Assembly (NCBI RefSeq): GCF_001482405.1
Contig: NZ_LPXO01000004.1
Coordinates: 1-64,000, forward strand
Source: Pseudoponticoccus marisrubri
GTDB taxonomy: Bacteria > Pseudomonadota > Alphaproteobacteria > Rhodobacterales > Rhodobacteraceae
Direction of reading: 5' to 3'
DNA: 64,000 bases
Made by a program: the position numbers and the translations under genes. The notes beneath the pieces are model-generated. The model had not been told where the DNA came from and made no database searches. It worked only from the letters and a program-made list of their open reading frames with translations. Numbering within the stretch: the stretch's first letter is position 1; each line of letters opens with the position of its first letter. This document shows, one piece after another, positions 58,047-60,537 of this stretch.

Positions 58047-58565
58047 ATGAAACGGCCCATCATCCTGCACCCCGACCCGCGGCTCAAGAAGGTCTGCCCG
58101 CCGGTCGACGACCTGTCCGACGACCTGCGCGTGCTGGCCGACGACATGCTCGAGACCATGTATGACGCGCCGGGGATCGGCCTGGCCGCGCCGCAGATCG
58201 GCGTGCTGTCGCGGCTGATCGTGCTGGACTGCGTCAAGGCCGACGAGGCGGCTCCGCGCCCGCTGGTGATGTTCAACCCGCGGATCGTCTCCGCCTCGGA
58301 CGAGATGAACGTCTACGAAGAGGGCTGCCTGTCGATCCCCGACCAGTATGCCGACGTGGAGCGCCCCGCCGAGGTCGAGGTCGAGTGGCTGGACCGCAAC
58401 GGTGCCCTGCAGCGCGAGGGCTTCGACGGGCTCTGGGCGACCTGCGTGCAGCACGAGATCGACCATCTCGATGGCAAGCTCTTCATCGACTATCTCAAGC
58501 CGCTCAAGCGTCAGCTGATCACCCGCAAGATGGTCAAGCTCAAGCGCGAGAAGGCCCGCGCATGA
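58047..58565 (+). CDS. def: Peptide deformylase 1
   Basis: A protein of 172 residues with all three deformylase motifs: GIGLAAPQIG (43-52), EGCLS with metal ligand Cys94, and HEIDH (136-140) with His136, His140 and catalytic Glu137. It removes the formyl group from nascent proteins. It is the first of three tandem def-like genes leading to fmt. Its stop overlaps the next start (ATGA). Confidence 0.97.
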   Translation: MKRPIILHPDPRLKKVCPPVDDLSDDLRVLADDMLETMYDAPGIGLAAPQIGVLSRLIVLDCVKADEAAPRPLVMFNPRIVSASDEMNVYEEGCLSIPDQYADVERPAEVEVEWLDRNGALQREGFDGLWATCVQHEIDHLDGKLFIDYLKPLKRQLITRKMVKLKREKARA

Positions 58566-59059
58566 GCCTGCGCGAGATCCTGCACTGGCCCGATCCGAGA
58601 CTGGCCCAGCCCGCCGCCCCCGTGACCGACCCGGCCGAAATGGCCGAGCTGATCGGCGACATGTTCGAGACGATGTATGATGCGCCGGGCCGCGGGCTGG
58701 CTGCGCCGCAGGTGGGCGTTTCGGCCCGGGTCTTCGTGATGGATACCGGCTGGAAGGATGGCGAGATGACGCCCATCGCCTGCATCAACCCGCAGATCCT
58801 CTGGCGCTCGGATACGGTGGCCACGGGCGGCGAGGGGTGCTTGTCGGTGCCCGGCGTCACCGCCGAGGTCCCCCGCGCCACCGAGATCGTGCTGGGCTAT
58901 ACCGACATCAACGGCGCCGCGCAGGAGCGGCACCTGACCGGCGCCGACGCGATCTTTGCGCAGCATGAATACGACCATCTCGACGGCGTGATGCATTTCG
59001 ACCGGCTCTCGGCTCCGGCGCGCGACGCGCTGCTGGCCGAGTACGAGTCTCGCGCGTGA
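58562..59059 (+). CDS. Peptide deformylase 2
   Basis: A protein of 165 residues and a paralogue of the gene before it. Motifs: GRGLAAPQVG, EGCLSVPG with Cys93, and HEYDH with His135, Glu136 and His139. The metal ligands and catalytic Glu are intact, so it is probably active; only the second residue of motif 1 is unusual (Arg for Ile/Val). It overlaps genes on both sides by four bases. Confidence 0.93.
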   Translation: MSLREILHWPDPRLAQPAAPVTDPAEMAELIGDMFETMYDAPGRGLAAPQVGVSARVFVMDTGWKDGEMTPIACINPQILWRSDTVATGGEGCLSVPGVTAEVPRATEIVLGYTDINGAAQERHLTGADAIFAQHEYDHLDGVMHFDRLSAPARDALLAEYESRA

Positions 59060-59553
59060 CCGTCCGGCCCTTCGTGCCCTGGCCCGATGCGCGGCTGCGC
59101 ACCGCCGCCGATCCGGTGGAGGCCGTGACCGACGAGATCCGCGCCATCTGGCAGGACATGATCGACACGATGGAGGCGATGCCGGGCGTCGGGCTGGCCG
59201 CGCCGCAGATCGGCGTCCTGCTGCGCCTTGCCGTGGTCGATGCCTCCGAGGCGCGCGGGCAGGCCGTCCGCATGGCCAATCCCGAGATCCTGCATGCCAG
59301 CGTGCAGCTGCGCGACCACGAAGAGGCCAGCCCGAACCTGCCCGGCGTCTCGGCCAAGGTCTCGCGCCCCCGCGCGGTCACGGTGCGCTATCTCGACGAG
59401 AGCGGGACGCCGGTCGAGAAGGACTTCGTGGGGCTCTGGGCCACCTCGGTGCAGCACCAGGTCGACCATCTCGACGGGCGGCTCTATGTCGACCGGCTGA
59501 GCAAGACGCGCCGCGACATGCTGCTGCGCAAGGCGCGCAAGCTGGCCCGCTGA
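59056..59553 (+). CDS. Degenerate peptide deformylase paralogue, probably inactive
   Basis: A protein of 165 residues that keeps the fold: GVGLAAPQIG (44-53) and HQVDH (134-138). Where active enzymes have EGCLS, it has EASPN, so the metal-binding Cys is replaced (Ser92 aligns). The catalytic Glu in HExDH is Gln135. Both metal His remain. Without Cys and Glu, deformylase activity is not expected. It starts with GTG and overlaps deformylase 2 by four bases (GTGA). The frame is intact, so it is a pseudoenzyme candidate rather than a pseudogene. Confidence 0.9.
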   Translation: MTVRPFVPWPDARLRTAADPVEAVTDEIRAIWQDMIDTMEAMPGVGLAAPQIGVLLRLAVVDASEARGQAVRMANPEILHASVQLRDHEEASPNLPGVSAKVSRPRAVTVRYLDESGTPVEKDFVGLWATSVQHQVDHLDGRLYVDRLSKTRRDMLLRKARKLAR

Positions 59554-59625: not shown

Positions 59626-60537
59626 ATGCGGGTGATCTTCATGGGCTCTCCGGACTTCTCGGTGCCGGTTCTGGACGCGCTGGTCGCGGCCGGGCACGAG
59701 ATTGCAGCCGTCTATTGCCAGCCCCCGCGCCCCGCCGGGCGCGGCAAGAAGGACCGCCCGACCCCGGTGCAGGCCCGCGCCGAAGACCTGGGCCTCGAGG
59801 TGCGTCACCCTGTCAGCCTGCGCGGGGCCGAGGAGCAGGCGGCGCTGGCCGCGCTCAAGGCCGATATCGCCGTGGTCGTGGCCTACGGGCTGATCCTGCC
59901 GCAGGCGGTGCTGGACGCGCCGGCGCGCGGCTGTCTCAACATCCATGCCTCGCTGCTGCCGCGCTGGCGCGGCGCGGCGCCGATCCACCGGGCAATCATG
60001 GCGGGCGACGCGCAGACCGGCATCTGCATCATGGAGATGGAGGCCGGGCTGGACACCGGCCCCGTGCTGCTGCGCGAGGCCACGCCGATCGGGCCCACAG
60101 AGACCACGGGCGAGCTGCATGACCGGCTGAGCGCACTGGGCGCGCGGCTGATCTGCGAGGCGCTGGACCGGCTCGACACGCTGACCCCGCAGCCCCAGCC
60201 CGAGGCCGGCGTCACCTATGCAGCCAAGATCGACAAGGCCGAGGCCGCGATCGACTGGGCCCGCCCGGCGGCCGAGGTCTCGCAGCAGATCCGCGGATTG
60301 TCGCCCTTTCCCGGCGCCTGGACGCAGCATGGCGCGGCACGGCTGAAACTGCTGGGCGCCGAAATCGTGGCCGGGCAGGGCGCGCCGGGGACCGTCCTGG
60401 ATGCCGGCTTCACTGTCGCCTGCGGCACCGACGCCCTGCGCATCACCCGCGCGCAACGCGCCGGCCGCGGCGCGCAGGATGCCGACAGCTTCCTGCGCGG
60501 CCACCCGCTGCCCGCCGGCACCATTCTGGGAGGATAG
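59626..60537 (+). CDS. fmt: Methionyl-tRNA formyltransferase
   Basis: A protein of 303 residues starting [18 protein letters not shown], with the formyl-tetrahydrofolate motif [20 protein letters not shown] and a C-terminal OB-like tRNA-binding domain. It formylates initiator Met-tRNA, the reaction whose product the preceding def genes reverse on proteins. It follows the def cluster by 72 nt. Confidence 0.97.

Follow-up and report, generated by a model that had tools for sequence, protein, structure and literature searches.

A conserved pseudo-deformylase in the peptide deformylase gene clusters of Rhodobacteraceae

The window, meaning the whole stretch of 64,000 nucleotides analysed here, corresponds to positions 1-64,000 of contig NZ_LPXO01000004.1 (assembly GCF_001482405.1) of Pseudoponticoccus marisrubri, a member of the family Rhodobacteraceae. 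Three peptide deformylase (PDF) genes lie head to tail within it and are followed by fmt, all on the + strand. These three genes are also the only matches to PF01327 in the whole assembly. The genes, and the elements of the third PDF, are as follows.

58047..58565, + strand: def1, a canonical peptide deformylase with the motifs EGCLS and HEIDH and a basic C-terminal helix
58562..59059, + strand: def2, a PDF with EGCLS and HEYDH intact, without the full basic ribosome-contact set; optional and fast-evolving
59056..59553, + strand: def3, the pseudo-deformylase, with a GTG start, 165 amino acids and no internal stop
59185..59208, + strand: Def3 motif I, GVGLAAPQ (residues 44-51), intact
59323..59337, + strand: Def3 motif II, EASPN (residues 90-94), with the metal-binding Cys replaced by Ser and Leu91 by Pro
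59455..59469, + strand: Def3 motif III, HQVDH (residues 134-138), with the catalytic Glu replaced by Gln and both His kept
59503..59547, + strand: predicted C-terminal helix of Def3 (residues 150-164), basic at the positions of E. coli K150, K157 and K160
59626..60537, + strand: fmt, methionyl-tRNA formyltransferase (TIGR00460, 278.9 bits), downstream of def3

Consecutive PDF genes share four bases, ATGA at 58562-58565 between def1 and def2 and GTGA at 59056-59059 between def2 and def3. Within the window, Def1 and Def2 retain EGCLS together with HEIDH or HEYDH, whereas Def3 has EASPN and HQVDH at the same places. A preliminary description of this DNA had proposed that both catalytic residues of def3 are replaced while the reading frame and both histidines are kept, and the translated open reading frame bears this out in each respect. 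It had further placed def3 in a coupled operon with two active paralogues. The coupling is seen in the overlaps and the motifs of the paralogues are intact; their activity is presumed from those motifs.

The PDF fold also appears to be retained, as had been suggested. Def3 scores 142.7 bits against PF01327 (cut-off 22.8), and its AlphaFold2 model (mean pLDDT 95.4) contains the elements of a PDF followed by a helix at residues 150-164. Such a helical C-terminal tail is the mark of type 1 PDFs, and in Def3 it is present in the predicted structure. The model differs by 1.1 Å from E. coli PDF 1bsj (Foldseek TM 0.95), and several E. coli PDF entries, at 1.1-1.4 Å over 163 residues, are among the closest solved structures. 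The model of Def1 agrees in these elements, and its last helix is longer. Among the NCBIfam models, NF009484 scores best on Def3 with 149.1, under its cut-off of 190, while TIGR00079 (132 bits, cut-off 103.95) and NF001159 (139.4, cut-off 125) both score above theirs. As the latter two exceed curated cut-offs, Def3 is likely to be named a peptide deformylase, and this can mislead tallies of active PDFs.

The gene trio is evidently an instance of the PDF clusters already described for Rhodobacterales. According to a 2025 survey (Mol Biol Evol, PMC12690207), PDF genes are clustered in 145 species, 104 of which belong to that order; clusters occur in 98.1 percent of its reference species, with three genes together in 62.5 percent. 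The rationale for this clustering has been termed elusive (PMC12690207). The clusters themselves are thus known, and the catalytically dead member appears to be the new part: no mention of a uniformly dead member was found in the available text of that account on the Rhodobacterales clusters. A literature search found no other account of Def3, and in the accessible part of a 2010 paper on duplication in R. sphaeroides, deformylases are mentioned for B. subtilis only.

Orthologues were collected in two ways. The first set holds 101 Def3 loci, made up of the window, 20 near relatives and 80 loci from titled genome records; these 80 are a biased sample, as they were found through six peptide patterns of which one spans the motif. 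Ser and Gln are present in all 101. The second set is independent of the motif and covers 199 Rhodobacteraceae genomes, one per genus, in which Def3 was called at E 1e-46 or better. It is present at this threshold in 169 genomes. All of these, together with one further genus from a class-wide sample, form the 170 Def3 loci (window included) on which the counts below are based.

An alignment of orthologues had been proposed as the check on the first description, and none of the 170 Def3 sequences restores Cys and Glu. Ser occupies the Cys site in 169 and Pro in one (EAPPN, at locus L120), and Gln stands at the Glu site in all 170. A replacement absent from the earlier description is equally uniform: the position of Leu91 is Pro in 170 of 170, and that of E. 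coli Cys129 is Ser in every case. The residues equivalent to E. coli G43, G45, Q50, E88, R102, H132, D135 and H136 are likewise kept throughout. Def3 therefore has the motif I glycines and glutamine expected of an active PDF and lacks the Cys of motif II and the Glu of motif III. The neighbouring Def1 has both Cys and Glu in all 169 readable cases; in the 170th (locus L178), motif II falls outside the fetched stretch, past its start. In Def2, the two residues are found together in 88 of 89. One Def3 (locus L133) has a short insertion in the loop that follows motif II and retains Ser, Pro and Gln.

In a working PDF, the formyl oxygen of the substrate is held by the backbone NH of Leu91 and by Gln50. 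A proline at the Leu91 site removes this NH; Def3 is thus deprived at once of its metal ligand, its general base and a part of the oxyanion site. The changes are also concentrated around the active site. Of 15 pocket residues, taken from a list in the available part of a published paper, five are fixed differently in Def1 and Def3, as against six of 146 other sites (Fisher p 0.0012). Among the other fixed differences, Def3 has Trp in place of the Ala of Def1 at its position 32, and Met in place of Ala at position 42. Loss of catalysis in Def3 is well supported by these sequence comparisons, from which its inactivity is inferred.

A changed rather than a lost activity has also to be considered. 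All 170 Def3 retain both metal-binding histidines and the Asp close to them, and residue 88 (59317-59319), directly before motif II, is His in 151 of 170, where Def1 has mostly Tyr. His88 could serve as a metal ligand or belong to the pocket. A site of two His, completed by Ser, His88 or Asn94, could hold a metal, or Def3 could perform another chemistry or act on another substrate, for example under oxidative stress when the Cys-Fe site fails. Activity persists in some PDFs despite altered motifs, as in the type 3 PDF of T. brucei, and stress-active type 3 PDFs are suggested in the same source (PMC12690207, available text). Against this stands the joint loss of the general base, the thiolate ligand and the NH at position 91 in all 170 sequences, and an altered activity is accordingly judged improbable.

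Inactive accessory PDFs of type 3 are known from S. aureus and S. pneumoniae (PMC12690207). Compared by their description in the available text, these resemble Def3 as accessory homologues with altered motifs that are expected to be inactive. Def3 differs from them in keeping the key residues of motif I and altering motifs II and III, in its predicted helical C-terminus, and in the clustering of its gene with def1 and fmt. Type 3 is defined in that text by substitutions in motifs I and II (PMC12690207); in Def3, motif II is altered and all 170 sequences retain the glycines and Gln of motif I, and the tree described below contained no type 3 sequence. Def3 resembles a type 1 PDF such as E. coli Def in predicted fold, key motif I residues, both metal histidines, the basic C-terminal helix and the neighbouring fmt; the absence of the metal Cys and the catalytic Glu, Pro at Leu91 and Ser at Cys129 set Def3 apart from it.

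Conservation of Def3 was compared with that of its neighbours in the 79 genomes that have all three PDFs and Fmt (3081 pairs). Mean pairwise identity is 0.709 for Def1, 0.696 for Fmt, 0.678 for Def3 and 0.503 for Def2. Def3 is more alike than Def2 in 3027 of the 3081 pairs and less alike than Def1 in 2121. Summed dN/dS over nine close pairs is 0.074 for Def1, 0.077 for Def3 and 0.093 for Fmt, and 0.195 for Def2 on two pairs only. In a 67-row tree, the 20 Def3 rows group in a single clade (100/100) whose stem measures 1.18 changes per column, longer than any of its inner branches. The nine Def2 rows form a separate clade (100/100), and the Def1 lineage that was parent to Def3 is not settled by this tree. 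The history of Def3 looks like a phase of rapid change that gave way to constraint, rather than like decay.

If Def3 were a decaying duplicate, a pseudogene in progress, the loss of its catalytic residues would be expected, and its absence from 30 of the 199 family genomes at the threshold used would fit as well. However, all 170 frames are at least 155 amino acids long, dN/dS is as low as that of Def1, and identical substitutions recur across genera. Local decay is ruled out on these three grounds, and a pseudogene in progress has next to no likelihood. A catalytic loss common to the orthologues, combined with purifying selection, is what distinguishes a conserved pseudoenzyme. Def3 has both, and this status is strongly supported by the motif pattern of the 170 loci.

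The 30 genomes without Def3 indicate that the protein is not needed everywhere. Twenty of them were searched again, with a PDF match in 19 and none in one; all 22 PDF rows read at the loci of these 20 genomes have Cys and Glu (genome G141 is counted twice). An Fmt tree of weak resolution (26 of its 66 inner branches are open, and the bootstrap is unsettled) has the genomes lacking Def3 scattered, some of them close to the outgroup and others among carriers. This suggests several losses within Rhodobacteraceae. Outside the family, no Def3 was found among a class sample of 289 genomes, where the five hits at E 1e-43 or better all belong to Rhodobacteraceae. The screen for the Ser/Pro/Gln pattern covered Alphaproteobacteria, and the pattern may have arisen independently elsewhere. 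Spread by phage was considered and rejected: tblastn gave 161 phage records, all below 60 percent identity. Among plasmids, 1002 hits were below 60 percent and a single one reached 60-80 percent; the latter lies on a replicon of Pseudorhodobacter turbinis 1.58 Mb in size. In genome G141 (loci L135/L152), one of those that lack Def3, there is a second PDF whose motifs have Cys and Glu and whose matched stretch contains an in-frame TAG.

Active PDF of E. coli contacts the ribosome through L149, K150, R153 and K157 (protein uL22) and through K160 and R163 (23S rRNA), according to the available text of PMC12690207. A basic residue occupies each of the K150, K157 and K160 equivalents in 170 of 170 Def3 and 169 of 170 Def1, and none of the 89 Def2 has this complete set. 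When R163 is counted as well, all four positions are basic in 63 of 170 Def3 as against 169 of 170 Def1. At the position of R153, Met is found in 89 percent of Def3 and in 85 percent of Def1 from the same genomes, and the L149 position of Def3 is usually Val or Thr. The C-terminal part carries a mean net charge of +8.1 in Def1, +6.6 in Def3 and -0.9 in Def2. From these tallies, Def1 carries the catalytic and the docking residues, Def2 the catalytic residues without the docking set, and Def3 most of the docking set without the catalytic residues. Docking of Def3 on the ribosome is inferred from the three conserved basic positions of its C-terminal helix; the helix could also have stayed basic by descent or for folding.

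In every one of the 170 Def3 loci, def1 precedes def3 on the same strand, whether or not def2 is present; def2 stands between the two in 89 and is absent from 81. In 163 of the 170, the fetched stretch also shows fmt downstream on that strand. A start-stop overlap of 1-5 nt is seen at 82 of 126 Def1-Def3 junctions and 112 of 124 Def2-Def3 junctions, in counts that pool the 170 family loci with the 80 titled loci, so that some genomes occur twice. So constant an association, regardless of Def2, and the frequent overlap with def1 would suit a non-catalytic partner of Def1, in a heterodimer or hand-off pair, that stabilises, recruits or restrains the enzyme and does not act on nascent chains. Tandem duplication, however, equally yields this adjacency, and a pure partner would have no need of the basic helix positions that Def1 and Def3 both retain. 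E. coli PDF, moreover, works as a monomer. A partner role is considered unlikely.

The preferred reading, held with about even confidence, is that Def3 is an ancient, conserved pseudo-deformylase of Rhodobacteraceae that docks on the ribosome and handles or times nascent N-termini. On one stem branch, a duplicated PDF would have lost its metal-binding Cys, the Glu that acts as general base and the Leu91 backbone NH, and would have come under strong selection thereafter. Def3 would dock through its C-terminal helix at uL22 and 23S rRNA beside the exit tunnel, as active PDF does. Its non-hydrolysing cleft may hold formyl-Met or Met N-termini as they emerge. This would set the timing of access by Def1 and methionine aminopeptidase, or would shield the chain as an early holdase. 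The gene overlaps probably tie the expression of def3 to that of def1. Active PDF has been reported to release the deformylated chain slowly and possibly to act as an early chaperone (PMC8712518), and its ribosome site overlaps that of methionine aminopeptidase (PMC8712518, PMC9099147), as far as the available text of these papers goes. If Def3 does bind without cutting, this natural PDF would offer a test of the proposed early-chaperone role (PMC8712518).

One member of the cluster lacks the catalytic residues and another lacks the ribosome-contact positions, which would make specialisation rather than gene dosage the reason for PDF clustering. More tentatively, deformylation may be split within these bacteria, with Def1 as the enzyme, Def3 as a ribosome-bound, non-hydrolysing reader of N-termini or early holdase, and thus an exit factor, and Def2 as an optional enzyme working off the ribosome. 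This reading is put forward with less assurance than the role proposed for Def3. A uniformly disabled look-alike that stands beside a working PDF in many Rhodobacteraceae and retains its presumed ribosome-docking part suggests a non-enzymatic job in protein synthesis, and Def3 offers a testable answer to the question left open on the Rhodobacterales clusters in the available text of PMC12690207.

Def2 presents the mirror image of Def3, keeping the catalytic pair in nearly all cases and never completing the basic set, and is possibly an off-ribosome deformylase. The sole exception to its catalytic pair is at locus L156, where the middle gene of one genome has lost catalytic residues separately: its motif II reads ENALS and its motif III QVMDH.
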